NCBI GenBank assembly: GCA_024644595.1 | Contig: JAHEHL010000003.1 | Location: 1-64,000, forward strand | Length of the DNA: 64,000 nucleotides | DNA from: Porticoccaceae bacterium | GTDB lineage: Bacteria; Pseudomonadota; Gammaproteobacteria; Pseudomonadales; Porticoccaceae | Direction of reading: 5' to 3' | Part shown: one piece after another, positions 1-13,684 of the stretch | Layout: the number at the start of each line of letters is the position of its first letter | How positions within the stretch are numbered: the first letter of the stretch is position 1 | Notes under the pieces: generated by a model | The model's database searches: none | Seen by the model: only the letters and a program-made list of their open reading frames with translations | Told to the model about the DNA's origin: nothing | Program-made: the position numbers and the translations under genes

Positions 1-707
1 CACCATCTACACCCAGCCCTGGTGGCAGCGGCGGCGGTTCATCAATGCCCTCTGCTCCATCTGGCGGCAGTGGGTCTGCTGGGGGCTCTTCATCCGCTGA
101 GGGCTCTTCATCCGCTGAGGGCTCTTCATCCGCTGAGGGCTCTTCATCCGGAGCTGAGGGCTCTCAATCCGCTGAGGGCTCTTCATCCGCTGAGGGCTCT
201 TCACCCAACGCTGACAGCGCTTCCACAGACAGCGGCGGTGCGGGTGAACCACCCGAAACCATTGAGCAACTCGATGATGCGCTGGATAGTTCGCTGGAGG
301 AATTTGACGATGCAGTCGCTGGCAACGGCAACAACGACAAACCCGCGCCAATTGATATTCTGAGTCCATCGGGTAGCAGCGGCGGCGTTGACAGCGACGA
401 ACCTCTATTTGAAGAGGCAGATGAAGGCTCGGCTGACCGCAGTGCCTCGATCGAAGAGCGCGCCGCAGAGGGTGCGCCCCCTAATGCAGAGGGCAGCGAA
501 GGGAGCGGTGCAGAGGGCGCTGCCAGTCAGAGTGCCAGCGCTCAAGAGGGCGATGGCGAGATTATTCCCATTCCCGAGGATATTGACGACGGTCAGGGTG
601 ATGATATTGTCCTGCGACAGATCCGCGATGCCGCCACTAAAGAGCGCGACCCGGTGTTGAGAGAAAAACTCTGGGATGAATACCGACGCATTAAAGGCCA
701 AGGTTAA
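1..707 (+). CDS. Repeat-rich acidic exported protein, 5' end missing
   Basis: The reading frame is open from the first bases, and the first in-frame ATG (45) has no ribosome binding site, so the true start lies left of the window. The visible part begins with a Pro/Gly/Ser-rich stretch, then an AEGSSS hexapeptide repeat, then a long acidic region. It ends in a more ordinary segment containing IIPIPEDIDD and a charged helical tail ending at KGQG. No enzymatic domain is recognisable. Composition and position at the head of an envelope gene cluster suggest an extracytoplasmic, intrinsically disordered protein; this is inference because the signal peptide is not visible. The small acidic protein at 5681-5992 ends in a similar FPIP motif. 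The exported-protein gene at 713 follows 5 bases later, so the two are probably co-transcribed. Confidence 0.7.
   Translation, partial: PSTPSPGGSGGGSSMPSAPSGGSGSAGGSSSAEGSSSAEGSSSAEGSSSGAEGSQSAEGSSSAEGSSPNADSASTDSGGAGEPPETIEQLDDALDSSLEEFDDAVAGNGNNDKPAPIDILSPSGSSGGVDSDEPLFEEADEGSADRSASIEERAAEGAPPNAEGSEGSGAEGAASQSASAQEGDGEIIPIPEDIDDGQGDDIVLRQIRDAATKERDPVLREKLWDEYRRIKGQG
78..206 (+). repeat. 18-bp in-frame tandem repeat encoding AEGSSS
   Basis: The unit gctgagggctcttcatcc occurs at 96, 114, 132, 153, 171 and 189, with a degenerate first copy at 78. A 3-base insertion (gga, 150-152) keeps the frame and breaks the array. Copies at 153 and 189 carry point changes. The unit is a multiple of 3, so copy-number changes would alter protein length without a frameshift. 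Confidence 0.9.
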
Positions 708-712
708 AACCG

Positions 713-1894
713 ATGCAGATAGTTAATTATTTAAAAAGCTCCACCATGGCACTGCTTCTGATGGCCGGCTCGGCCACGGCCGCTGTGGACAAAATAACCT
801 CATCGACCACGTTGCCGCTGGACATCCCTTCGCGCGCCTATCCGGTCGACACTCTGCTCGATGTCGGCATACCCACCTTAAACGATGGGCTTTATATGAC
901 CGATGACAACGACACCGTATTTCCCGAAGTGCGCTACGCCGAAGCGATCTATTTTTCCAATCAGCTTGGTAAAGTGCTCGAGAAAAGCGGCGCCTGGGGC
1001 GCCATACGGGTCACACCTAACAGCGACGTAATAATGGATCTCTATATCACCGGCACCATCTATCAGTCGGACGGCGAAACCATGGACCTGGAAATTGTCG
1101 CCACCGACAGCAGTGGCAAACAGTGGTTTAGCAATCGCTACAAACAAAGCACCGGCAAATATGCCTACGATCGACGTTTAAAAAGTCTCGGCGACCCGTT
1201 CCAGAACCTGTTTATTCGCATCGCCAATGACCTGCTCAAATACCGCGAAGCAATCAGCGATGAACGTGCTCAGGAACTGCGCACGATTTCCGAGCTGCGC
1301 TTTGCAAAAAAATTCTCCCCAGAGGCTTTCGACAGCTATATCAAGGAAGATCGAAATGGCATTTTAAGTATCTCTCGGTTGCCCGCAGAAAATGACAGCA
1401 TCCTGCAGCGGGTGCGCAAAATTCGCGAGCGCGACTATCTCTATGTCGACACCATGCAAGATTATTACGACGGCTTCTCACAACAGATGCATCTCGCCTA
1501 TCAGGACTTCCGACGCGCCTCATACGACTCAGTGGTGCGCGCCAGACAACTCAATCAACAGGGCACCAAGCAGATTATCGGCGGTATCGGCGCCATTCTC
1601 GCTGGCATCTATGGCCGCACCCAAGCGCGCAGCAATATTGCCGATGATGCCGGCACCGCTACCGCTGCCGTGGGCGGCTTTGTACTTAAAGCCGGGCTCG
1701 ACAAGAGACAAAAAGCCGCAGAAATTAATGAATCGGTAGCCGAGATGGGCTCCTCCCTGGAAGCAGAGATTGCACCCCAGGTCATAGAACTGGAAGACCG
1801 CACGGTGACACTCACCGGCACCGTGCAGGCACAGTACCAACAGTGGCAGGAACTGTTAGGCAAAATCTATCAACAGGAACGTGCAACACCCTGA
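713..1894 (+). CDS. Exported protein of the ExbB/VWA cluster, unknown function
   Basis: This 393-residue protein starts with a signal peptide (hydrophobic residues about 12-23, then an ATAA cleavage site before VDK), so it should be periplasmic or outer-membrane associated. Residues about 35-190 look like a mixed alpha/beta domain. The middle (about 195-290) is helical and charged. A Gly/Ala-rich segment (about 292-330, IIGGIGAILAGIYG) could be a membrane-inserting hairpin. The C-terminus (VIELEDRTVTLTGTV) could be a short beta domain. I do not recognise a named family. It starts 5 bases after the upstream acidic-protein gene and is followed 3 bases later by the TPR-protein gene, which supports one operon. 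A structural or assembly role in the envelope complex is inferred from context only. Confidence 0.75.
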   Translation: MQIVNYLKSSTMALLLMAGSATAAVDKITSSTTLPLDIPSRAYPVDTLLDVGIPTLNDGLYMTDDNDTVFPEVRYAEAIYFSNQLGKVLEKSGAWGAIRVTPNSDVIMDLYITGTIYQSDGETMDLEIVATDSSGKQWFSNRYKQSTGKYAYDRRLKSLGDPFQNLFIRIANDLLKYREAISDERAQELRTISELRFAKKFSPEAFDSYIKEDRNGILSISRLPAENDSILQRVRKIRERDYLYVDTMQDYYDGFSQQMHLAYQDFRRASYDSVVRARQLNQQGTKQIIGGIGAILAGIYGRTQARSNIADDAGTATAAVGGFVLKAGLDKRQKAAEINESVAEMGSSLEAEIAPQVIELEDRTVTLTGTVQAQYQQWQELLGKIYQQERATP

Positions 1895-1897
1895 TCT

Positions 1898-3367
1898 ATG
1901 AATAGTAATGTACCCAATCACACCACGGCAGCCGATGACAGACAGCCCGCTAATAAAAGTGGCCATAAGAGCGGCATGCAAAAAATAACTGTCGCCGTGC
2001 TGCTGTTGCTGGCCACAGCGGTGATCTTTGTGCTGCCCAATCTGGTCAGCGAACCCTGGATTGACGGCAGCGGGCCTTCACAACAGCCGGTGGCAAAGCC
2101 CGACTCGACACTGGTCAGCCCCTCCACCGCTGCACAGAAAACCAAATATCGCCAAGACGCCCAAACACTGCTGGCAGAGATTATTCAGCGCCGCGACCGG
2201 CTCAATCTCAGGCGGGTCGAACTGTGGGGTGAATTTGAATACCACCAGGCACAAAAAACCGTCGAACAGGGCGACCAGGAATACAGCTATGGCGACTACG
2301 GCAAATCTGTAGCCAGCTATCAACGTGCGCTGGATGGGCTTCGCGAATTGGAAGCCCGCGGCGAACAGCTGCTCGAAAAGGCTATAATCGACACCGGTGA
2401 AGCCATCTCAAACTCGGTCCTCAGCACCGCACTCAGCGCCAGCCAGCTGGCCTCAGCCATAGCACCAGACAATAAAACCGTACTCCACCTTGTCCAGCGA
2501 ACCGCCACGCTGCCCACTGTGATCGACGCGATGCAGCGCGGTAATCAGCAGCTGGCGTTACAGCGCTACGACCAGGCGGCTATCGCCTTTAGAGAGGCCA
2601 CCCTCGCGGATCCCGAGCATCAAAAAGCCGCGGCGGCACTGACATCAACCGAACAGCAAATCACCGAACAGCGCTTCCTCGGTCATATGAGCGACGGCTT
2701 TAAAGCGTTGGATAAAGATAACTTTGAGCTGGCGATTGCAGCATTTAATCGCGCAGCCACTGTCTATGCCGACAACCCCGCGGTGGAGCAAGCACTGGCC
2801 CAGGTAGAAACCCGACGTTCACAGCTCTGGGTCAGCAACAGCATTGCCCAGGCTGCCGAATTTGAGCAACAGGAACGGTGGCAGAAGGCGCTCGAAATCT
2901 ATCAGCAACTGCTGGCGACAGATGCAACACTCACCGACATCAAAGTTAAACTGATCCCAGTTTCTGTGCGCGCCGATCTCGACACACGGATCACAAAAGT
3001 ACTCAGCGACCCCCTGGCTCTCTCCGCCATCAGTCACTATCGCCATGGCCAGAAAGTTCTTCAAGACGCCACCGGTATTGCTAATCCGGGGCCCTTGCTG
3101 AGCCAGCAAATCACACAGCTGAATCACGCGCTCAAGGCCTCGCAGACGCCTATTGAAGTCACGCTTGTCTCCGATAGCAACACCGATGTCACTCTGTTTA
3201 AAGTTGCCAGACTCGGCAGCTTCGATAAAACCGCCGTATCACTCAAGCCCGGGCGCTATATTGTCGCCGGTTCACGTATGGGTTATCGCGATGTCAGAAT
3301 CGAGTTCACCCTCACAGACCAAGGTTTGGATGAACCTATCGCGGTGAGTTGCACAGAGCTGATCTAG
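1898..3367 (+). CDS. Membrane-anchored TPR-like protein with a PEGA-like C-terminus
   Basis: A protein of 489 residues with a short cytoplasmic N-terminus, one membrane helix (about 29-50) and a large periplasmic part. Residues about 70-370 are helical, with repeated Ala/Tyr/Leu spacing typical of tetratricopeptide repeats (for example around YDQAAIAFREATLADPEH and NFELAIAAFNRA). The last about 70 residues (IEVTLVSDSNTDVTLFKV through VSLKPGRYIVAGSRMGYRD) resemble a PEGA domain, a small beta fold found on surface and envelope proteins. TPR regions usually bind partner proteins, so a scaffold role in this cluster is reasonable inference. The gene lies 3 bases after the exported-protein gene at 713. 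Confidence 0.75.
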   Translation: MNSNVPNHTTAADDRQPANKSGHKSGMQKITVAVLLLLATAVIFVLPNLVSEPWIDGSGPSQQPVAKPDSTLVSPSTAAQKTKYRQDAQTLLAEIIQRRDRLNLRRVELWGEFEYHQAQKTVEQGDQEYSYGDYGKSVASYQRALDGLRELEARGEQLLEKAIIDTGEAISNSVLSTALSASQLASAIAPDNKTVLHLVQRTATLPTVIDAMQRGNQQLALQRYDQAAIAFREATLADPEHQKAAAALTSTEQQITEQRFLGHMSDGFKALDKDNFELAIAAFNRAATVYADNPAVEQALAQVETRRSQLWVSNSIAQAAEFEQQERWQKALEIYQQLLATDATLTDIKVKLIPVSVRADLDTRITKVLSDPLALSAISHYRHGQKVLQDATGIANPGPLLSQQITQLNHALKASQTPIEVTLVSDSNTDVTLFKVARLGSFDKTAVSLKPGRYIVAGSRMGYRDVRIEFTLTDQGLDEPIAVSCTELI

Positions 3368-3611
3368 TGTGGGGCCAAGCGTTTTAGAATAAGCGTTGTG
3401 AGTTTTAAGGCTTGAGAGCTGTTTCGCCAATCTACTGTCATATATGCTGTAAGCCATGACAGCAACCGTAGCCCAAGTGTTTTCACCCTGCTGTGAATAC
3501 AGTGCCATACTAACAATACAGCGCCATACTAAAGTGAATAGAAAATAAAAGTAGCCGCTAGAAGAGCAAACGACAGAGCATCAGAGACGACAATAAAAAA
3601 ATAGAATACTT
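3368..3611. other. 244-bp intergenic region with a tandem repeat
   Basis: The region separates the first three genes of the cluster from the PEGA/SUMF1 gene. It is AT-richer than its flanks and contains an imperfect 19-bp-period direct repeat (annotated separately). No convincing terminator hairpin was seen, so readthrough or a second promoter are both possible. Confidence 0.5.
3496..3532. repeat. Two tandem 18-bp copies, 19-bp period, upstream of the PEGA/SUMF1 gene
   Basis: Copies at 3496-3513 (aatacagtgccatactaa) and 3515-3532 (aatacagcgccatactaa) differ at one base. The near two-helical-turn period and the location 80-115 bases before the next start codon would suit a transcription-factor operator. 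Recent local duplication is an equal alternative. Confidence 0.6.
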
Positions 3612-5684
3612 ATGGTCAAAAGTAAAAACAGCGCCCCACTCTCAGCAACAGACTTTACGCCGCTGGAAGAAAAGTCGACAACCAGTCGCCGCGGCCCGTC
3701 GCCTGTCATATTGCTGACCACAGCATTCACGCTTTTTGCCATCGCCGTCATGCTATTTTTATTTGCTGCCCGGGCGGTTATCTTTCGTCTCGATCCCAAC
3801 AGCGCAACCGTGGATCTCGACGGCCTGGCATTTCATATTGGCGACAACTACCTGCTGCTAAAAGGCCGGCACCAAGTTCGCGCGCAGGCCCCGGGTTACT
3901 ACCCATTGGCGCAAACTATTGAAGTCAGCGGTGACACCACCCAGGAAATTGAAATGACTCTGCAGCCGCTGCCCGGCAATCTGTTGGTGCGCTCCAGTCT
4001 CGACGATATCCAGGTGCGCATTGACGACCAGGACGCCGGGCGCGTTCCCGGTACGCTCGAGGAAATCAGTCGTGGCGCCCACAAACTGGAATTTAGCAAA
4101 TACCGCTACTTCAACCTGCGGCAGCAAATCGAGATCGAAGGACTGGGCAAAACCCAAGCCATAGACATTGCCTTGCAGCCAGCCTGGGGTCAGATGGCCT
4201 TCACCACCACGCCAGCGGGAGCCGACTTATTTATCGACGACCGCCTGATTGGCCAGACACCGATCAGTGCCGAAGTTCTCGAGACCGGCAGCCAGCTAAC
4301 TCTGAAAGCGCCCGGTTACAAAACCTTGAAAAAACAGGTTACAGTCAAGGCCGGCAGCCAGGCCCAACACCCGCTGATTGAAATGATTGTCGCCGATGGT
4401 CAAGTCGTGATCAGCAGCACCCCCGCCGGTGCCAGTATCACTCTGGACCAACAGTTTCAGGGCACGACGCCACTTACCATTGATGTCTCGCCCTTTTCCC
4501 AACACAGGATTGATCTATTTCTTGAAGGTTACCTCAAAGCCAGCCGCTCACTGAGTGTCAAACCCGAGCAACAGACCAATTTGGCTGTCGACCTGCAACC
4601 CAATATTGGCAGCGTCCGCTTTAATATCACCCCTGCCGACGCCACCATTCTGGTCGATGGCAAAGCCTACGGCAGTGGCAGTCAGACCTTATCGCTAAAT
4701 GCCAAGCCGCACAGCATCAGTGTCACCAAGAGCGGCTATGAAACCAAATCCATGACCGTGACACCGCGCCCTGGTCATCAGCAAGCACTGAATATCGACC
4801 TGCTAACACTGCAACAAGCCTACTGGGCATCACGGCCGCCACTGATCAAAACCTCTCTCGGCAAAAGGTTGAAACTATTCCAGCCCAATGAGCAATTTAT
4901 ACTTGGTGCACCGCGGCGTCAGCCCGGCAGGCGCGCCAATGAAGCAGAACGCGCCGTGCGTCTTGAGCGACCGTTTTACCTTGCCACCCACGAAACCACC
5001 AATGCCGAGTTCAAGACCTGGAAAGATCAACACAGCTCCACCGCAATCAAAGGCCAAACCCTGGACATGCCCGACCAGCCCGTCGCCAGAGTGAGTTGGC
5101 AAGAGGCCGCGCTGTTCTGTAACTGGTTGAGTCGCAAAGAGGGATTGCCCGCGTTCTATATTGTCGAACAGGCACGGGTGACCGGCGTCAACTGGGACGC
5201 ACATGGCTACCGCTTGCCCACCGAAGCAGAATGGGCCTGGGCGGCAAAAATTGATCAACAATCGCGCAGTCAGATATTCCCCTGGAGCAATGACCTCTAT
5301 CCGCCACAGCAAGTCAGCGGTAACTATGCAGATGAAAGTGCCAACGGTTTCCTCGCTTTCACTTTGGCCAACTATAACGACCAGTACCCGGTCTCCGCCG
5401 TGGTTGGCAGCTTCCCCGCCAACAGCAAGGGACTCTTTGATATGGATGGCAATGTCGCCGAATGGGTCAATGACTTCTTTGACATTCGCCCCAACCGCGG
5501 CGACGCCGAGCTGGACCCCCACGGACCCGAACAGGGCACTCGATACGTGATCCGCGGTGCCAGCTGGGCGCTGGCCTCGCGCACCGAACTGCGCCTTAGC
5601 TATCGCGATTCTGGTACTGATGGGCGGATTGATTTAGGCTTTAGAATAGCCCGCTATGTCGATAAGCCTGGAGCAACCCTATGA
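3612..5684 (+). CDS. Membrane-anchored PEGA-repeat protein with a SUMF1 (FGE-sulfatase fold) domain
   Basis: 690 residues. A membrane helix at about 31-55 is followed by four or five PEGA-like beta modules (about 60-395; recurring patterns such as STPAGASITLDQQFQGTTPL and TPADATILVDGKAYG). A SUMF1/FGE-fold domain fills about 415-685, with the family landmarks PVARVSWQEAALFCNWLS, YRLPTEAEWAWAA, GNVAEWVNDFF, IRGASWA and GFRIAR. The paired catalytic cysteines of formylglycine-generating enzyme are absent (the equivalent region reads LSYRDSGTDG), so it is unlikely to be a Cys-to-formylglycine oxidase. SUMF1 folds also serve as binding or structural modules. The stop overlaps the next start by 4 bases (ATGA), so the two are translationally coupled. 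Expected location is periplasmic, anchored in the inner membrane. Confidence 0.88.
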   Translation: MVKSKNSAPLSATDFTPLEEKSTTSRRGPSPVILLTTAFTLFAIAVMLFLFAARAVIFRLDPNSATVDLDGLAFHIGDNYLLLKGRHQVRAQAPGYYPLAQTIEVSGDTTQEIEMTLQPLPGNLLVRSSLDDIQVRIDDQDAGRVPGTLEEISRGAHKLEFSKYRYFNLRQQIEIEGLGKTQAIDIALQPAWGQMAFTTTPAGADLFIDDRLIGQTPISAEVLETGSQLTLKAPGYKTLKKQVTVKAGSQAQHPLIEMIVADGQVVISSTPAGASITLDQQFQGTTPLTIDVSPFSQHRIDLFLEGYLKASRSLSVKPEQQTNLAVDLQPNIGSVRFNITPADATILVDGKAYGSGSQTLSLNAKPHSISVTKSGYETKSMTVTPRPGHQQALNIDLLTLQQAYWASRPPLIKTSLGKRLKLFQPNEQFILGAPRRQPGRRANEAERAVRLERPFYLATHETTNAEFKTWKDQHSSTAIKGQTLDMPDQPVARVSWQEAALFCNWLSRKEGLPAFYIVEQARVTGVNWDAHGYRLPTEAEWAWAAKIDQQSRSQIFPWSNDLYPPQQVSGNYADESANGFLAFTLANYNDQYPVSAVVGSFPANSKGLFDMDGNVAEWVNDFFDIRPNRGDAELDPHGPEQGTRYVIRGASWALASRTELRLSYRDSGTDGRIDLGFRIARYVDKPGATL

Positions 5685-5992
5685 TCAAGCCGCTGCGAAA
5701 ACTGACAAAATCCGAACTCTGCATCGCGCTGTTCGCTGCGCTGCTTTTGTCACCGCTACTATCGCCACCACTCTGGTCACAGGAAAGTGCTGAGGCCACA
5801 CCGGCCAATGCAGCAAGCGAGGCAGCGATGGATGGTCCCAAGGCTGTAGTAGATGCCGAAGACTATAATCCAGAGGATTCCGAGGGCTCAGAGGATAAAC
5901 AGCAAAGCGAAACTCTAGAATCCGGCGCAGACTTTAAACCCGACGAAGAGATCTCGGAAGATTTCCCCATCCCTCTTCCATCTGATATCTAA
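5681..5992 (+). CDS. Small acidic exported protein
   Basis: A protein of 103 residues with a basic N-terminus, a hydrophobic signal segment (about 14-30) and then a strongly acidic, low-complexity body rich in Glu, Asp and Ser, ending DFPIPLPSDI. No lipobox. It overlaps the PEGA/SUMF1 gene by 4 bases and is followed 36 bases later by the ExbB-like gene, which has its own AGGAGG-type ribosome binding site at about 6018. The C-terminal PIP-containing motif resembles that of the acidic protein at the left edge, suggesting a shared docking peptide. Function unknown. Confidence 0.7.
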   Translation: MIKPLRKLTKSELCIALFAALLLSPLLSPPLWSQESAEATPANAASEAAMDGPKAVVDAEDYNPEDSEGSEDKQQSETLESGADFKPDEEISEDFPIPLPSDI

Positions 5993-6028
5993 ACCGTTTA
6001 ATCGCAATACAGCCCTCAGGAGGCTGCA

Positions 6029-6823
6029 ATGAAAAGCCATACCAATGAAATGTTTTTCCAGTTGATCGCCCTGCTGCTCGCAGTGATTTTGGTGCATGCG
6101 GTATTTGTCACCGTGGTGCGACCCAACGCCGAGACCACCATTCGCCAGCACGCCGAGATGGCTGCCGCAGGTGAAGCCTATGAAGTGCCGCGCTCATTTT
6201 TTGTGGTAATTAAAGACTTCGAGCAAGAGGCCTGCTTTATTCTGATGTTCTGGTCACTGGCAATTATGGGCTACAAGACTCGCAGTGCTATCCGCGAACA
6301 GCGCATGTTCGCTACACCACTGATCAATATTGCCGAGGGCTCGAGGGTACTGCCCGAGGATGCCAGCCAGCTAGCAAGGCCACTGCAGTCACTCGCCGAA
6401 CCCCAGCGTTCGATGCTATTGCCCCGAGCTCTGCAGACCGCCCTGACTCGCTTTCAGGTCACCGACAGCGTGCAGTCGGCCACTGATGCCGTCAATGTCG
6501 TCTGCAACAATGAAAATGATCGCCTCGACTCAGAACTCTCCATGGTGCGTTATATCACCTGGGCCATTCCCTCGATCGGCTTTATCGGCACTGTGCGCGG
6601 TATTGGCGCCGCACTGGGCCAGGCCCATGAAGCGATGGAAGGCAACATCGCCGGCGTCACCAGCAGCCTCGGCGTGGCCTTTAACTCTACCTTTATCGCC
6701 CTCTTGATCAGCATGGTAGTGATGTTCTTTATGCACCAGCTACAGCTGATTCAAGAGCGCCTGGTGCTCGATTCACACGACTACTGTGAAAATAATTTAC
6801 TCCGTTTCCTCAAGGCCAAATAA
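6029..6823 (+). CDS. MotA/TolQ/ExbB family proton-channel subunit
   Basis: 264 residues with four predicted membrane helices (about 9-30, 68-84, 175-196 and 211-236) and a cytoplasmic loop of about 90 residues between the second and third. The third and fourth helices carry the family signature: IPSIGFIGTVRGIGAAL (Thr188 in the conserved GTV) followed by VTSSLGVAFNSTFIALLISM. In this family, pentamers of the A subunit conduct H+ or Na+ and drive a B-subunit dimer (MotB, ExbD, TolR). No canonical exbD, tolR or motB is nearby. The VWA genes downstream supply the only helices with a buried Asp, so they are the likely partners (inference). A good ribosome binding site (cAGGAGGctgca) precedes the ATG. 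Confidence 0.9.
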   Translation: MKSHTNEMFFQLIALLLAVILVHAVFVTVVRPNAETTIRQHAEMAAAGEAYEVPRSFFVVIKDFEQEACFILMFWSLAIMGYKTRSAIREQRMFATPLINIAEGSRVLPEDASQLARPLQSLAEPQRSMLLPRALQTALTRFQVTDSVQSATDAVNVVCNNENDRLDSELSMVRYITWAIPSIGFIGTVRGIGAALGQAHEAMEGNIAGVTSSLGVAFNSTFIALLISMVVMFFMHQLQLIQERLVLDSHDYCENNLLRFLKAK

Positions 6824-6826
6824 ATT

Positions 6827-8113
6827 GTGAGCACCGCCGTCCTCGAACTCAATGACCAAGCTTTGCTGATAAAAGCCAGCAGTGGCGAGGTCTATTCCGA
6901 GCCAGGCTTTGCGCTGCACACTGAGCAGGGAATTGTCAGCGGAATCGAGGCCCGCAATCAGGCCTGGCTGCAACCGCAAAATGTCTATCGCCAATATTGG
7001 CATCACCTCAGTCAAAACCCACTGCGCGGTAATCTGCGCTGGGCGCGACACCATGCCGATATCGCCTTTGCACAACTGAAAAGTCTGCTCGGCCATGCCG
7101 GCCAACCAGAAAAGCTCATAATCAGCGTCGGCGCCAATTTTGATGATCAACAGCTGTCACTGCTGCTGGGGCTATTGAGCGCCATCCCGACCGAGGTGAT
7201 CGCCGTGGTCGACAGCAGTCTCGCCGACTGCCTCAATCTGAGTGCCGACAAACAAAAGATTTTGCATATAGACCTGCATCTGCACCAGACAGTGGTCAGC
7301 CAGATCAACTGCTCCGGCAACAGCATCGAGGTTGCAGAGCAGCGCCTGCTTGGCGAACTAGGCGCGCTCTCGACTTACGCTCTGCTCGCCAATCATATAC
7401 GTGACAGACTGGTGGCAACCTTTCGCTACGATCCAATGCACTCGCCCCAGGAAGAGCAGGCAATCTACAACCTATTGCCGGAATGGATCCTGCGCGTTGG
7501 ACAGCAATCCGAGTGCCCTATCAGTATCCCCTCAGCAAATGGTGATCTCGCCCTGACACTGCACCGCCAAGAACTACTGGACCTGATGGCTCCGCGCCTG
7601 ACTGAGTTGTCGGCACTACTCCGTGAAATGTCTGACCACGCAATTCACTTTAGCCAACAGTCGCGAATACTCTCCGTGCTGACCGATAAACCGGATGCCT
7701 CACACCATCTTCAAAATACTCAAGGTGTGGATAACTGCCTGCATTTTATCAGCAGCCTAGTGGATGACAGCCAAGGTTTGCAGCGCATCACCAGCCTGCA
7801 GCAGATCGACGGCAACAGACCTCGCCCTGCCATTCAGGCTAATGGCCCCAGCACCGCCACACATCTACTCTACAAAGGCCAAGCCTGGCCTCTCAATCAG
7901 CCCCTCGGCATCCAGATCGACAACAGCCGTATCGCCATATCCAGCGCAGACACCAACCGAGCAAGCCTTGTGCTGATAGTAGAAAACCAGCAGCTGAAAG
8001 TTCTCCAGCAAACTGTCGACGCCGTCATCGAACTGCCGCCACAGGCACGTTGTGGCGAGAATATTATTATCAATGCCCAGCGTCTGGAATTGATCGAGGT
8101 GCGCAATGGCTAG
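6827..8113 (+). CDS. Divergent ASKHA (actin/Hsp70-like) protein of the ExbB/VWA cluster
   Basis: This 428-residue soluble protein starts at a GTG 3 bases after the ExbB-like stop. Residues 1-160 echo the ASKHA fold: an N-terminal VLELNDQALLIKASSG strand pair (phosphate-1-like), a KLIISVGANF strand followed by a helix and IAVVDSSLADCL (about 97-135), and ILHIDLHLHQTVV (about 145-157), which resembles a phosphate-2 strand. The canonical glycine-rich adenosine loop is hard to see, so nucleotide binding is unproven. The last about 85 residues are beta-rich and could be an FHA-like or other small beta domain (weak). It overlaps the next gene by 8 bases. It may be a cytoplasmic regulator or assembly factor for the membrane complex. 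This is a low-similarity reading. Confidence 0.6.
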   Translation: MSTAVLELNDQALLIKASSGEVYSEPGFALHTEQGIVSGIEARNQAWLQPQNVYRQYWHHLSQNPLRGNLRWARHHADIAFAQLKSLLGHAGQPEKLIISVGANFDDQQLSLLLGLLSAIPTEVIAVVDSSLADCLNLSADKQKILHIDLHLHQTVVSQINCSGNSIEVAEQRLLGELGALSTYALLANHIRDRLVATFRYDPMHSPQEEQAIYNLLPEWILRVGQQSECPISIPSANGDLALTLHRQELLDLMAPRLTELSALLREMSDHAIHFSQQSRILSVLTDKPDASHHLQNTQGVDNCLHFISSLVDDSQGLQRITSLQQIDGNRPRPAIQANGPSTATHLLYKGQAWPLNQPLGIQIDNSRIAISSADTNRASLVLIVENQQLKVLQQTVDAVIELPPQARCGENIIINAQRLELIEVRNG

Positions 8114-9164
8114 CAAGCGCCGCAATATTGCCTTCAGTCTCTCGTTTCTCGACATTATGGCCTGCGGCTTTGGTGCTGTGACCCTGCTGTTTTTAATCCT
8201 TCGCCACAACGCCACTGAAATCGAAACGCCCGACCCGCGACTGGCTTCAGAAGTTGAACTGCTGCAGGAAGATATCCGCCAGGCTGAATCGGAAAAGACC
8301 GAACTGCTGAACAGCCTCGAACAGTTACAGCTGGAACTGCTGACCACTCAAGGTGCATCAGAGCAAGTTATCACCGACCTGCAAGAGCAGGAACAGAGCA
8401 TCCAGTCCGATCCCAAAGACGATATAGCCAAACTTCGCCGCCAGGTCGAGCAGCTCGAAGAGCAGACCGCGATGATGGAAGAGGCCGACTTTGGTGACAA
8501 AGTGCGCGAATTTCTCGGCGACGGCAATCGTCAATACCTCACCGGCCTCAAACTTGGCGGTGAGCGGGTGATGATTCTGGTCGACGGTTCCGCCAGCATG
8601 CTTGCCGACACCGTGGTCAATGCCCTGCGGCGCAGGAATATGAGCGACAGTGATATCAAGCAATCACCCAAATGGCAGTGGACCCTGCGCACCGTCGAGT
8701 GGCTATTGGCGCAGCTGCCCCCCAGCAGCCGGTTTCAGGTCTACCTGTTTAACACCGCCGCCGAGCCTGCTCTGCAAGGGTCCGAAGGTGAATGGCTGGA
8801 TGCCGCCGACTCTCTGGAGTTGGAGCGTGTGATCAAAGGCCTGCGCGACTATTCACCGGGTTCTGGAACAAGCTTGATCAACGCCATCAACACCATTAAT
8901 ACCTTCGAAGACAAACCCGACAACCTGTTTTTGCTCACCGATGGCCTGCCCACCCAGGGCAAGTCGGCACCCAAAAAATATATGGTCAGCGGCACGCAGC
9001 GCCGCGAGTTTTTTGCCGACGCCATCGACAACCTGCCCCGGGGTATGCCGGTCAACAGTATTCTCTTCCCCATGGAAGGCGATCCGGAAGCGGCCGCCAT
9101 GTTCTGGCAACTCGGTGTCTCCACCCAGGGCGCCTTTATCGCACCCTCGAGGGACTGGCCATGA
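8106..9164 (+). CDS. VWA-domain protein with ExbD/MotB-like membrane helix (first of pair)
   Basis: 352 residues: a short basic N-terminus, one membrane helix (about 11-32) containing Asp16 in the motif SFLDIMACGFGA, a coiled coil (about 43-128) and a VWA domain (about 150-345). The VWA metal site (MIDAS) looks complete: DGSAS (Asp160), Thr255 in SGTS and Asp279 in LLTDG. A single N-terminal helix with a buried Asp is the hallmark of MotB, ExbD and TolR stators, but their usual peptidoglycan- or TonB-binding domain is replaced here by VWA, a metal-dependent protein-binding fold. It overlaps the ASKHA-like gene by 8 bases and the next VWA gene by 4 (ATGA). The VWA domain should lie in the periplasm. 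Confidence 0.88.
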   Translation: MASKRRNIAFSLSFLDIMACGFGAVTLLFLILRHNATEIETPDPRLASEVELLQEDIRQAESEKTELLNSLEQLQLELLTTQGASEQVITDLQEQEQSIQSDPKDDIAKLRRQVEQLEEQTAMMEEADFGDKVREFLGDGNRQYLTGLKLGGERVMILVDGSASMLADTVVNALRRRNMSDSDIKQSPKWQWTLRTVEWLLAQLPPSSRFQVYLFNTAAEPALQGSEGEWLDAADSLELERVIKGLRDYSPGSGTSLINAINTINTFEDKPDNLFLLTDGLPTQGKSAPKKYMVSGTQRREFFADAIDNLPRGMPVNSILFPMEGDPEAAAMFWQLGVSTQGAFIAPSRDWP

Positions 9165-10150
9165 AGCGCCAGCGCCGCGAACTTCCGGAAGCGAGCATCT
9201 CATTTCTCGACGTTATCAGCTGTGGCTTTGGCGCTATCGTGATGTTGCTGGTGATCGCGCGGGTCGGCGACCCTGCAGCACTGGAGGAAGCCGAGAACGC
9301 ACTGCGCGGCACAGTCAAAGAATTCCAGCAACGACTATTTGATGTGCGCGGTGAATCGGTGACCCTGAATGAACAACTCAAATCGCGCAAACAACAGCTC
9401 TCCGAACTCAATGAACGGGTTGCCCGGCTTAAAGCCAAACTCGCCAGCGTCGAAACGCAAGCCAAGAAGATGTCGCTGTCGCAGTCTCGTGAAAAAGAGC
9501 AGCTGCAACTGGTGATGCAGGTTCTCACCGAAGAGATGGAGCGCCTGATCGGCCCTGAATTCAAACAGCAGAATCAGCTGATTGGCGGCATTCCGGTAGA
9601 CAGCGAATATATTATTTTTGTTATCGACACCTCCGGCAGTATGCAGGTCGCCGCCTGGGAAAAAGTCCAAAAAGAGATGATCAATATTCTTGATATCTAC
9701 CCGGATGTGAAAGGACTGCAGGTGCTCAATGATATGGGCCAGTATATGTTTTCAGCCTATCGTGAACGCTGGATACCCGACAGCCCCGAGATGCGCGAGG
9801 ACATTATCAAGACATTGCGAACCTGGGCACCATTCAGTAACTCCAGCCCGGTCGAAGGCATCAATGCCGCGATTCAAACCTTCTACAAACCGGGGCGCAA
9901 AATCAGCATCTATACCCTTGGTGATGACTTTCAGGGGCGCTCGATTCGCGCTGTGGTCAAGGCTATCGACAACCTCAACCAGGCCCATCGCGGCACTGAC
10001 CGGTTGGTCCGCGTTCACGCCATCGGTTTTCCAGTGCAGTATTTGCGCGGCCGTGCACTCAGTCCGTCAGCAATTAAGTTTGCTGCGCTGATGCGAGAAC
10101 TCAGTTATAACAACGGAGGAACCTTTATCGGGTTAAGCAGCCTTAACTAA
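9161..10150 (+). CDS. VWA-domain protein with ExbD/MotB-like membrane helix (second of pair)
   Basis: 329 residues, built like the preceding protein. A basic N-terminus leads into a membrane helix (about 12-33) with Asp17 in SFLDVISCGFGA, almost identical to the motif upstream, then a coiled coil (about 39-135) and a VWA domain (about 147-325). The MIDAS has DTSGS (Asp156), and the third-ligand Asp lies in LGDDF. The usual Thr position reads as Ser (SNSSPVEG), so metal binding may be weaker. The two VWA proteins share topology and helix motif but are otherwise diverged, which fits an obligate heterodimer of B subunits around the ExbB-like channel (inference). Translationally coupled to the first VWA gene. 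Confidence 0.87.
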   Translation: MKRQRRELPEASISFLDVISCGFGAIVMLLVIARVGDPAALEEAENALRGTVKEFQQRLFDVRGESVTLNEQLKSRKQQLSELNERVARLKAKLASVETQAKKMSLSQSREKEQLQLVMQVLTEEMERLIGPEFKQQNQLIGGIPVDSEYIIFVIDTSGSMQVAAWEKVQKEMINILDIYPDVKGLQVLNDMGQYMFSAYRERWIPDSPEMREDIIKTLRTWAPFSNSSPVEGINAAIQTFYKPGRKISIYTLGDDFQGRSIRAVVKAIDNLNQAHRGTDRLVRVHAIGFPVQYLRGRALSPSAIKFAALMRELSYNNGGTFIGLSSLN

Positions 10151-10162
10151 AGGGATACGACT

Positions 10163-10777
10163 ATGCCAACAGCCAAAATAACGTTTTTCACAGCTCTGCT
10201 CGCACTGGTATTGATCTCCGGGTGCAGCTCATCGGCGCAGGTACAGGTGCAATCCCAATTCCCCCAGGTCATATCACAACCGAAACCGATTAATGGCGTC
10301 ATCGTCTTTAGTGAAGAGTTCCAGAACTACATCGCGACACCGTCCAAAAACACCACTATCGACCTCGGCGTAGCGCAGACCAACTTGTTGCGCAACGCCT
10401 TTAGCGGTCTGTTTGCCAATATCGAATTTGTCTCGTCCAGCGACCAGGTCAGTCTGGAAAATGCTCTGATCATTACCCCCTCGGTTACGGAAGTGCAAAT
10501 CTCCACACCCTCAGACACCTATCTGAATGTCTATGAAGTGTGGATCAAGTACAGCCTCGATATTGCCGATGCCGATGGCCAGCAGATCGACAGCTGGTTT
10601 ATGCCCGCCTATGGCAAAACGCCTAATTCCTTTATGCTGTCAAAATCCAACGCCATCGAAGAGGCTGCAATCATTGCCCTGCGCGATGCCGGCGCCAAGT
10701 TACTGCTCGACTTCTATCGCATTCCCAGCGTCTACAACTGGGTAATCGAAAAAGAAAAACAGGAGGCGCAAAAATGA
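10163..10777 (+). CDS. Lipoprotein of the ExbB/VWA cluster
   Basis: 204 residues with a type II signal peptide: hydrophobic core, then lipobox LISGC with lipidated Cys21 followed by SSS. No Asp at +2, so outer-membrane sorting by Lol is expected. The mature part alternates strands and helices (VIVFSEEFQNYI, then ALIITPSVTEVQIS, then IEEAAIIALRDAGAKLLLDF), a pattern often seen in small envelope lipoproteins. No named family recognised. It starts 12 bases after the second VWA gene and overlaps the next lipoprotein gene by 4 bases (ATGA). Confidence 0.75.
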   Translation: MPTAKITFFTALLALVLISGCSSSAQVQVQSQFPQVISQPKPINGVIVFSEEFQNYIATPSKNTTIDLGVAQTNLLRNAFSGLFANIEFVSSSDQVSLENALIITPSVTEVQISTPSDTYLNVYEVWIKYSLDIADADGQQIDSWFMPAYGKTPNSFMLSKSNAIEEAAIIALRDAGAKLLLDFYRIPSVYNWVIEKEKQEAQK

Positions 10778-11472
10778 ACTATTCAGCCATCCTCAGCGGT
10801 ACGCTGTTGATTGCCTTGATGCTTAGCGGCTGCGGCGCCACCACCACCATCGACGAATACCGCCCGACCACCAAAGCCATGCAAATTAACAGCGAGGAAT
10901 CGGTAGTCATTCTCGGCCGTCGCGATGCCGGACACTACGACACCGACCGCGAATTTATTGACTGTGTCGCCAAAAAAATGGAAGGCGCAGATATTCAGGT
11001 GCTGCCCGAGCGGCAATTTATCGACTCCATCTATCCCTGGTTTGAACCGCGCACCGCGCCCAAGGGCCTCAAGCGCTTAACCCGTTTGATGAAAAATCCA
11101 GCGATTAAAAAGCAAGTTCGCAACCAGAAACTGCGCTATCTGGTATGGATCGACGGTTCCACTAACACCCATGACAGGGGCGGTTCAATCAGCTGTGCAA
11201 TCGGACCCGGCGGCGGTGGCTGTTTTGGTTTTGCCCAGTGGGAAAAAAGCTCAATCTACGAAGCAATTGTTTGGGATCTGAGCGACCTCACAGAAAAGGG
11301 CCGCCTGCGTGTTGACTCAACCGGAACCTCCTATCTGCTCGGCGTCGTCGCGCCCATTCCGTTGCTGACGCCGGTTAAAAATGATGCCTGTACCAGCCTT
11401 GGCAAACAGCTAAAACAGTTTTTTAGCGTGGCAACAAATAGCGCTCAAAATAACAGCGACTCAAGTGACTAG
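10774..11472 (+). CDS. Second lipoprotein of the ExbB/VWA cluster
   Basis: 232 residues with a clear type II signal peptide and lipobox LSGC (Cys20), then GATTTIDEYRP. The mature domain contains SVVILGRRDAGHYD near its start and a Gly/Cys-rich segment (ISCAIGPGGGGCFGFAQW, about 130-150) whose two Cys could form a disulfide. No named family recognised. It is translationally coupled to the upstream lipoprotein gene, so the two products are probably made in similar amounts and may act as an outer-membrane pair. The M48 protease gene starts 18 bases after the stop. Confidence 0.75.
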   Translation: MNYSAILSGTLLIALMLSGCGATTTIDEYRPTTKAMQINSEESVVILGRRDAGHYDTDREFIDCVAKKMEGADIQVLPERQFIDSIYPWFEPRTAPKGLKRLTRLMKNPAIKKQVRNQKLRYLVWIDGSTNTHDRGGSISCAIGPGGGGCFGFAQWEKSSIYEAIVWDLSDLTEKGRLRVDSTGTSYLLGVVAPIPLLTPVKNDACTSLGKQLKQFFSVATNSAQNNSDSSD

Positions 11473-11490: not shown

Positions 11491-12927
11491 ATGGCCACTA
11501 TTCAGATTAACTCAATTAAGGATCAAATCCGCGCCTGGCTGCTGATACCGCTCTTGGTATTGCTGCCGACCGTCGAGGCTGTAGCAAAAACCACCGGCGA
11601 AGATATCTATAAACAGGTGCTCGAGAGCACCGCTATCTACGATGACCCGGAACTGGATAGCTATATCAGAAAGCTCGGCGAAGAGATTGTCGCCCAATCT
11701 GAAATGGCCGGCGAAAAATTTACCTTCACCCTGCTTGACTCACCCGACCTGAATGCCTTTGCCACCCGCGACAACTACATCTACGTCAACCGGGGACTAC
11801 TCAACTACGTCAGCAATGAAGCACAGCTGGTCTCGGTGCTGGCCCACGAAGTCGGTCACGTGACACGCAAACATGTCACCGGTCAGGAGGGCAAGGCAAC
11901 CGGCGCACAGGTACTTTCCGCCATTGCCGCAGTGCTCTCTGGCAGTGCCGACGTCTATGAAGCCGGCATGGCCTACGCCAACTCAATTATCCGCGGTCAC
12001 GGCCGGCGCAACGAACTCGAGGCCGATGAAGCCGGAGCTGAATATATGGCCAAGCTGGGTTACTCGCCAGATGAAATGATCAATATGCTGTCGATTATGA
12101 AAGATTATGAAATGCTGCAGAAAGATCGCGCCAAAGCCAGGGGCGCCAGCAACCAAACCTATCACGGCATCTTCTCGAGTCACCCGCGCAACGACTCGCG
12201 CCTGCGCACCGTGGTCAGCAAGGCGCAGACATTTCAGGCCGAGCAGCCACGGGATAACGGCGCCGCAATTTACCGCCAACTCACCGACGGCCTGATCTGG
12301 GGCGAGAACTTTCTGGCCAAGCAAAAGCAACCTCAACGCTACTCCGATATGACCATGCGTGTGCGCTTTGATTACCCCGACGGCTGGACCCAGACCAATG
12401 ACAGCACAACGCGCAGTTCCCGTGGCAGTCCCGAGGACAGCAGCGCCATATTGAGCATGACACCCATCGCCCGAACCAGCCAGACGCCGGAAGAGTATCT
12501 CTACAACTACCTTAAGGTCGCCAAGCTGGATCTCGGCAAAGCGATTTCTCCGGCCGGGCTAAAAGGCTTTACCGGCATATTGCCCGGCACCGAAGACCAA
12601 CCCCCCAGCCGAATCGCCGTCATTTATTACAAGCTCAACGCCTTCGTATTCAAAGGCGAGGTCGACGATCCAGATAAATTTGCCGAGACAGATAAACTGT
12701 TCTCCCAATCTATCGCCACGTTTCGGCCCATCTCCCAACGTGAGATCGATGGACAAAAACCGAAGCGCGTTCACTATGTCAAAGCCACCAACGCCACCAC
12801 CTTCGACAAACTCGGCAAGGCGCTCAAACTCCGCTCCTCAGAAGTCGACGACCTGCGTATAATCAATGGCCACTACCCCACCGGCGAACCCAGCGCCGGC
12901 GATTGGATCAAAATTTTTCGACAGTGA
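11491..12927 (+). CDS. M48-family zinc metalloprotease, BepA-like, with LysM-like C-terminus
   Basis: A 478-residue exported protein: signal peptide (about 13-32) and an M48 peptidase domain (about 35-240). It has the zinc motif HEVGH (His119, Glu120, His123) and the third-ligand segment NELEADEAG (Glu177). A middle domain (about 270-410) resembles the extra domain of other exported M48 proteases. The last about 50 residues (TFDKLGKALKLRSSEV through PTGEPSAGDWIKIF) look like a degenerate LysM module. Relatives such as BepA (YfgC) and LoiP work in periplasmic quality control of outer-membrane proteins. Here, beside two lipoprotein genes and a PPIase-like gene, maturation or quality control of the cluster's own products is a fair inference. 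Confidence 0.88.
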   Translation: MATIQINSIKDQIRAWLLIPLLVLLPTVEAVAKTTGEDIYKQVLESTAIYDDPELDSYIRKLGEEIVAQSEMAGEKFTFTLLDSPDLNAFATRDNYIYVNRGLLNYVSNEAQLVSVLAHEVGHVTRKHVTGQEGKATGAQVLSAIAAVLSGSADVYEAGMAYANSIIRGHGRRNELEADEAGAEYMAKLGYSPDEMINMLSIMKDYEMLQKDRAKARGASNQTYHGIFSSHPRNDSRLRTVVSKAQTFQAEQPRDNGAAIYRQLTDGLIWGENFLAKQKQPQRYSDMTMRVRFDYPDGWTQTNDSTTRSSRGSPEDSSAILSMTPIARTSQTPEEYLYNYLKVAKLDLGKAISPAGLKGFTGILPGTEDQPPSRIAVIYYKLNAFVFKGEVDDPDKFAETDKLFSQSIATFRPISQREIDGQKPKRVHYVKATNATTFDKLGKALKLRSSEVDDLRIINGHYPTGEPSAGDWIKIFRQ

Positions 12928-12934
12928 ACCGGCC

Positions 12935-13684
12935 ATGAAAAAAATCTCCTCAACACCCTTTTTGCGAGTGATTGCAATACTTTTTGCAATCGCTGCGCTG
13001 GTCATTGGTGGCATCTACTGGCTCGGCACACAATCGACCGCCGACCGCCAGACCGTGGCGCTGGATGCCTTGACCAACCCTGACAGCGATGCGCTGCAAA
13101 GGCGAATTAATCAACAGCTGTTTGGCGACGACCTCGTTGATGTAGAGGGGATTGGCGCCGATATCGACAACACTCTCGATCCCAACGCCATGCAGGCAAA
13201 GCTCGCTGGCCTCACTAAAAATGTGACCACCGAACGCGTTCCCACCGAGCAAGAATTGCGTCTCTTTTACGCGCTCAACAAAGACAACTACCGCAACCCA
13301 TCACTCTTCTGGCTCAGTGTCGAAACCTTTACCACAGCCCGCCACGGCGGGCAGGTATTTGAGAAAGCGCAACAGGCACTTGAGTCGGCACGTCAAGCAA
13401 CACTCGAGTCGGGAAGCAGCTCGGCTGTGCCTGAGGGCGATAGCCATGATCGCTACGCACGCATTTCCAGCACCGAGCTGGCGGAGCGATATGGACCCAG
13501 TTTTGTGGCTAGCCTGATGCAGGCAAGTGAAGAAAGCGCGGCCCTACCCTGCTGGCACGGGCCAATCAGCTCCCCACAGGGCGCTAACTTGGTATGTGTT
13601 CGAGAGGTGCTGTGGGGAGATTACCCGGCCCTTGTATCAATCAAAGACCAGGTTATTAACGATTGGCGGTTTTCGGTTAAATAA
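12935..13684 (+). CDS. Membrane-anchored parvulin-like (PpiC-type) peptidyl-prolyl isomerase
   Basis: The ATG at 12935 gives 249 residues with a good membrane anchor (about 10-31). An upstream in-frame extension to 12866 overlaps the protease gene and lacks signal features, so it is rejected. Residues about 105-240 follow the pattern of PpiC-like periplasmic proteins: PTEQELRLFYALNKDNYRNP (chaperone-like start), then SSTELAERYGPSFVASLM, CWHGPISSPQGANLVCVREV and a final helix. The WxGPxxSxxGxxLVxV pattern is typical of the parvulin rotamase core. Two Cys in the core could form a disulfide. It starts 7 bases after the M48 stop and is the last gene of the + strand cluster. Fold assignment is fairly sure; isomerase activity is not proven. 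Confidence 0.78.
   Translation: MKKISSTPFLRVIAILFAIAALVIGGIYWLGTQSTADRQTVALDALTNPDSDALQRRINQQLFGDDLVDVEGIGADIDNTLDPNAMQAKLAGLTKNVTTERVPTEQELRLFYALNKDNYRNPSLFWLSVETFTTARHGGQVFEKAQQALESARQATLESGSSSAVPEGDSHDRYARISSTELAERYGPSFVASLMQASEESAALPCWHGPISSPQGANLVCVREVLWGDYPALVSIKDQVINDWRFSVK

Follow-up and report, generated by a model that had tools for sequence, protein, structure and literature searches.

A proposed proton-driven 5:2 motor with paired VWA proteins, envelope parts and a candidate cytoplasmic clamp in a Porticoccaceae operon

Motors of the 5:2 kind drive flagella, nutrient import, division and gliding. The locus considered here, positions 6029-10150 of a 64,000-nucleotide stretch of a Porticoccaceae contig (the whole of which we call the window), raises the question of whether such a motor could be built with VWA proteins in the place of ExbD or TolR, and of which further parts would belong to it. 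A preliminary description of the locus recognized three genes, encoding a MotA/TolQ/ExbB-family channel and two VWA proteins. All three stand, but a fourth gene at 6827-8113 had been overlooked, as had the wider operon around them. The genes run from near the contig edge in the following order:

g1, 45..707, + strand: acidic, repeat-rich protein near the contig start (ORF call)
g2, 713..1894, + strand: envelope protein with a signal peptide by eye (ORF, family consensus)
g3, 1898..3367, + strand: short cytoplasmic tail, one membrane helix (by eye), TPR repeats (TPR_2, E 1.6e-6)
g4, 3612..5684, + strand: cytoplasmic tail, one membrane helix, five PEGA repeats, FGE/SUMF1-fold domain (Pfam)
g5, 5681..5992, + strand: small, secreted or membrane protein, poorly conserved (ORF)
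Channel, 6029..6823, + strand: A subunit, TolQ/ExbB family (PF01618)
Hsp70-like, 6827..8113, + strand: predicted Hsp70-fold protein of 428 aa, degenerate ATP motifs, FHA-like C-terminus
VWA1, 8106..9164, + strand: N-terminal membrane helix with Asp16, coiled coil, VWA domain, C-terminal ..WP
VWA2, 9161..10150, + strand: N-terminal membrane helix with Asp17, coiled coil 38-130, predicted VWA fold 147-329
lp1, 10163..10777, + strand: probable lipoprotein, lipobox by eye (ORF)
lp2, 10774..11472, + strand: probable lipoprotein, lipobox by eye (ORF)
M48, 11491..12927, + strand: M48 family metalloprotease (Peptidase_M48, E 2.8e-32)

Membrane helices and lipoboxes were assigned by eye throughout, with no prediction tool. 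The outermost members of the run are the least uniform. It is possible that g1 is the first gene of the operon; a longer homologue lies upstream of g2 in many loci, although low complexity may drive such matches, and one homologue only gives a weak Pfam match to DUF6381 (E 0.013). A blastp match to g5 was found in 7 of 31 loci. Pfam assigns lp1 and lp2 to no family, and their position is conserved in many loci, with both missing from some lineages, while the M48 metalloprotease often closes the cluster as its last gene. After the M48 gene in the window, and overlapping its end, 12866-13684 encodes a PPIC-type rotamase-like protein, a weak assignment (E 0.00057, below the cut-off).

The channel matches PF01618 at 51.2 bits against a cut-off of 22.9, which bears out its earlier assignment and places it in the MotA/TolQ/ExbB family that supplies the A subunit of 5:2 rotary motors. 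In an alignment to TolQ (8odt; E 0.0044), T188 and T221 stand opposite TolQ T145 and T178, residue numbers that we take to be the threonine ring positions, and neither threonine varies in any of the 140 distinct sequences. As judged from its sequence, the channel appears to have four membrane helices, the number found in MotA. In known motors the threonine ring encloses an Asp (PMC12204202). His23 (window 6095-6097), in membrane helix 1 of the channel, is conserved as His in 134 of the 136 distinct sequences without a gap at this position, and is possibly an ion-path or docking residue.

VWA1 and VWA2 open, after a short basic stretch, with SFLDIMACGFGA and SFLDVISCGFGA, respectively, so that the matching N-terminal helices and conserved Asp noted previously are plainly there. 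The Asp lies near the cytoplasmic end of the helix; it is present in 156 of 156 distinct VWA2 sequences, and in VWA1 at 156 of 160 loci when the reading frame is followed past mis-called starts, the remaining four being fragments. Profile comparison shows the two helices to be homologous (E 7e-23), whereas the VWA domains have diverged. Sequence searches with VWA2 against Pfam and PDB profiles returned mostly coiled-coil matches, the VWA domain being nearly invisible to profiles; its fold was settled by the predicted structure, for which the lists of fold matches were filled by VWA domains. The further suggestion that these are adhesion modules has conserved MIDAS residues and nothing more in its favor. 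VWA1 ends in Trp-Pro (window 9156-9161), invariant in 153 of 153 distinct sequences, which looks like a docking tail.

If the VWA proteins serve as partners of the channel, then their genes should travel together. We collected 162 loci with a match to VWA2, and counted vwa1 where at least 1300 bp was available upstream, and the channel gene (exbB) where at least 3300 bp was. By these counts 155 of 156 loci carry vwa1 and 139 of 140 carry the channel; in L270, the sole locus without it, the channel is on another contig of the same genome, and in two relatives of L270 it follows VWA2. VWA genes regularly occurring without the channel gene, named in the preliminary description as the observation that would speak against it, were thus not encountered. 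As the loci were collected via VWA2, this direction is well tested, and the reverse only in ten genomes: of nine checked that had no VWA2 match, eight gave no channel match either at E 0.001, and in the ninth the channel lies 1.2 kb from where the contig ends; the tenth (G905) has the channel together with a VWA match that is partial and sits at a contig edge. The envelope genes are similarly constant among the first 132 loci, with g4 in 105/106, g3 in 100/100 and g2 in 93/93 of those with enough flank. Some loci represent one genome drawn from two collections (e.g., L038 and L093), and the number of loci is hence not a number of species; duplicates were removed before counting for tails and proteins, but not for loci.

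A profile search of the window's genome finds four genes of the ExbD family (PF02472), all on other contigs and none on that of the window, such that the operon contains no ExbD gene. Three of the four adjoin channel genes of their own; the fourth (contig 4, 498237) has no PF01618 match nearby. Together, the co-occurrence of VWA and channel genes, the location of ExbD off the contig, the conserved Asp and the invariant T188 and T221 provide good support for the proposal that the VWA proteins are B subunits that work like ExbD. Membership of the ExbD family, as judged from the sequences, is not supported. The Pfam scan of VWA1 and VWA2 gave no PF02472 match, and homology by profile comparison was rejected as a signal too weak and not specific, since hhalign of the helices against those of ExbD (30 rows, of which one, L207, has no proper ExbD N-terminus) scored 22% for VWA2 and 3% for VWA1, against 50% for an unrelated control, the helices of g3 and g4.

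Among the putative envelope parts, g4 is the most readily classified, with Pfam matches to PEGA (E 9.6e-53) and FGE-sulfatase (E 7.9e-36); its best NCBIfam match is GldK (E 3.1e-23), at 82.7 bits where the GldK cut-off is 350 bits. It does not have the active site of an FGE/SUMF1 enzyme: the catalytic Cys, which we presume to follow the RGGSW motif, occurs in 0 of 91 readable regions from 128 distinct sequences, the other 37 having no readable motif. The family consensus of g2 contains a lipobox-like LAGC, and the Pfam scan placed g2 in no family. Membership of the T6SS TagQRST group was considered and rejected, because the match of g2 to TagQ hardly stands out from noise (2 of 25 members; best E 0.029); TagQRST remains a functional parallel only.

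Some loci hint at regulation. The N-terminus of g3 is a Ser/Thr protein kinase domain in L233 (11771-14239; E 5.1e-41) and L234 (11653-14082; E 3.9e-29), and L268 has a g3 of similar length to these two. In L233, L234, and L237 the start of g4 looks like an FHA domain, a call that Pfam did not make. In the divergent L240 (G233), 2723-7351 holds a row of genes on one strand: first that of the channel, then one for an FHA protein, one for a PP2C phosphatase, the only VWA gene (helix SALDLFASAMGA) and one for a trypsin/FHA protein; this cluster could be a simpler, homodimeric cousin. The kinase-fused g3, together with the FHA and PP2C genes of L240, suggests that relatives of the motor may be under Ser/Thr phosphorylation control.

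The gene overlooked at 6827-8113 encodes a protein whose predicted structure has the fold of the Hsp70 nucleotide-binding domain, with a match list covering residues 1-319. LHLHQ and SQQSR stand opposite LGGGT and GGQTR of DnaK, and the glycine-rich phosphate and adenosine motifs of Hsp70 are accordingly missing, the first phosphate loop being outside the alignment; the C-terminal tail reads as FHA-like. This gene is usual but not universal in the loci, which allows its presence to be compared with the cytoplasmic tail of g4, where the window has the candidate docking motif LSATDFTP. A pattern of medium stringency, [ILV]x[PAS]xx[FY]xP, matches 83 of the 90 distinct g4 tails that occur with the Hsp70-like gene and 0 of the 12 without it. 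The corresponding counts are 63/90 and 0/12 for a stricter pattern, for which shuffled tails predict 0.7/90, and 86/90 and 5/12 for a looser one, which was dropped on account of those five matches. Tails beginning at a contig edge were excluded, and the patterns were derived from the same loci on which they were first counted. In loci fetched later, the strict pattern occurs in 4/6 g4 tails with the gene and the medium pattern in 3/6, against 0/13 without the gene for each, many of these 13 loci belonging to lineages already sampled. In g3 tails the motif is rarer (strict pattern 23/83 with the gene and 0/12 without; 1/6 and 0/12 in later loci). On a tree of 144 loci (138 distinct; the 162 minus 18 with weak or missing pieces), presence of the Hsp70-like gene changes four times. 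In the four independent pairs that this affords, the motif follows the gene in a mean of 3.1, never does the opposite, and shows no difference in 0.9 (median p 0.25); with four pairs only, the association cannot reach significance. By analogy, the link between motif and gene suggests a clamp resembling that of PilM and PilN, in which actin-like PilM grips the PilN N-terminus (PMC5285504).

Our preferred reading, to which we assign a probability of roughly three in four, is that the operon specifies a 5:2 motor like MotAB, ExbBD and TolQR, powered by protons and equipped with VWA arms, envelope parts and a cytoplasmic clamp. We infer that five channel proteins (6029-6823) would form a ring, with one VWA1 and one VWA2 helix in its pore and the proton-accepting Asp of each facing the threonine ring, such that proton flow would turn the VWA1/VWA2 pair. 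A coiled coil of approximately 90 residues (some 14 nm if straight) would put the VWA heads in the periplasm, where they would probably meet the PEGA stalk and non-enzymatic FGE-fold head of g4, the TPR repeats of g3, and g2. On the cytoplasmic side, the probable role of the Hsp70-fold/FHA-like protein is to clamp the g4 tail, and perhaps the g3 tail as well, in the manner of PilM with PilN. That the machine delivers force to the outer membrane is a guess. We propose tentatively, and with slightly more doubt than belief, that the disarmed Hsp70/FHA-like protein grips the motif in the stalk tail and so holds the VWA rotor to the PEGA-FGE stalk, with a TPR-fused kinase controlling this link in some lineages. 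If true, then an Hsp70-like grip on the stalk would give a 5:2 motor a cytoplasmic clutch of a new type.

Other arrangements of the same parts are conceivable. Each VWA protein might homodimerize in a channel ring of its own (5:2:0 and 5:0:2) with no heterodimer formed, and the single VWA gene of L240 makes a dimer from one gene possible in a relative. It also removes the word obligate from the obligate heterodimer first proposed, of which the near-constant pairing of vwa1 with vwa2 is the part that holds. The same question is stated as open for AglQ/AglS, two MotB homologues with one channel (PMC9389320). We nevertheless consider separate homodimers rather unlikely, on the circumstantial grounds that vwa1 accompanies vwa2 in 155/156 loci, that the two genes overlap by four bases in the window, and that the VWA domains have diverged but not the helices. 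Placing the VWA proteins outside the pore, as side-bound transducers like TolA or TonB with the real ExbD/TolR partner encoded elsewhere, would fit both the ExbD gene at contig 4, 498237, which has no PF01618 match nearby, and another vWA family of that type, with tolR-like genes adjacent (PMC12204202). This we regard as highly improbable, given the conserved Asp near the cytoplasmic end, the lack in the VWA helices of a His as in the SHLS motif, and the very tight adjacency and pairing of the genes.

Alternatively, the cluster may be a sensor akin to TagQRST-PpkA, whose VWA, FGE and FHA-like components would report proton flow or envelope stress to a kinase. An FGE-like fold is a feature of TagR and a VWA domain of PpkA, and the kinase fused to g3 in L233/L234, with the PP2C and FHA genes in L240, could be accommodated in such a scheme. 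In that system the outer-membrane lipoprotein TagQ recruits periplasmic TagR, activating the phosphorylation pathway (PMC6657622). But sensing needs no motor channel, no kinase gene was seen in the window's operon, and the TagQ match of g2 is near noise, all of which make a sensor improbable relative to the 5:2 motor with VWA arms.

Within the window's own family of marine bacteria almost every genome carries the VWA2 gene: 57 of 61 sampled genomes match, one of them partially. Matches extend to 33 of 145 genomes in the order (31 full-length, and two weak coiled-coil matches), to 44 of 369 in the class at E 0.001 (28 with E < 1e-80), and to 19 of 398 in the phylum (16 with E < 1e-70, including 13 of one family outside the class). 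Among the best 80 of at least 582 relatives from a scan of named genome contigs, the titles are those of gammaproteobacteria, such as Porticoccaceae, SAR92, Microbulbifer, Halieaceae, Colwellia, Bowmanella and Pseudoalteromonas; no sequence was identified as Idiomarina. One record titled as a Klebsiella pneumoniae MAG (L124) has the operon, with a VWA2 52% identical to that of the window, and we suspect a mislabeled bin. In G105, a second, diverged paralogous cluster (L067; channel 33%, VWA1 27%, and VWA2 34% identical) occurs beside the main one. An anti-phage, Zorya-like reading, prompted by a weak PADLOC match to ZorA (E 0.0035; the rest is apparent coiled-coil noise), was rejected in view of the presence of VWA2 in nearly all genomes of the family.

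The core idea, that VWA proteins are motor B subunits, was put forward earlier as a hypothesis, in Mol Biol Evol 2025 (PMC12204202). In that paper, which started from an Idiomarina query, membrane-tethered vWA proteins, mostly in heterologous pairs, are tightly linked to tolQ homologues without tolR/exbD and have a conserved Asp in the helix, and the pair is modeled by AlphaFold 3 within a TolQ-like pentamer. Its main text makes no mention of PEGA, FGE, or Hsp70. Our literature search for the wider operon, based on titles and the starts of abstracts, and with preprints and most subscription journals outside its scope, returned no other description and no reported function; g2, the membrane-anchored TPR protein, the PEGA/FGE stalk, the Hsp70-like protein and the tail motif are the elements that we have not found described. 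Although the proposed motor is of a known 5:2 kind, interest remains in the wider machine, which can now be listed, in the gene that had been missed, and in the clamp motif, which is testable. With these parts and a named motif for the candidate clamp, the published structural guess becomes testable in culturable marine bacteria.

Compared with the TPH-vWA/TolQ-like motors of PMC12204202, the core is no different as far as can be tested: a tolQ-like gene co-occurs tightly (139/140 loci), the vWA proteins form heterologous pairs with a helix Asp (vwa1 in 155/156 loci), and no tolR or exbD is adjacent, the last from the window's genome only; the difference lies in PEGA, FGE and Hsp70, which are absent from that text. 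With ExbBD, TolQR, and MotAB the proposed motor shares the channel family, the threonine ring, and a single N-terminal helix with Asp, but its B partner is a coiled coil with a VWA domain in place of an ExbD/TolR or OmpA-like domain, its two partners are unlike, and its channel appears to have four helices where TolQ has three. The GldKLMN system of type IX secretion also combines a motor gene with an FGE-fold envelope protein, and of all NCBIfam families GldK matches g4 best; g4 nonetheless falls far below the GldK cut-off, and the channel described here belongs to the TolQ family, which is not clearly so for GldL (PMC9389320). PilM-PilN of type IVa pili likewise pairs a cytoplasmic protein whose fold is of the actin/Hsp70 class with a short tail motif in a membrane protein of the same operon, whereas the protein described here has a predicted fold closest to Hsp70, an FHA-like domain and a different motif as its candidate binding partner.
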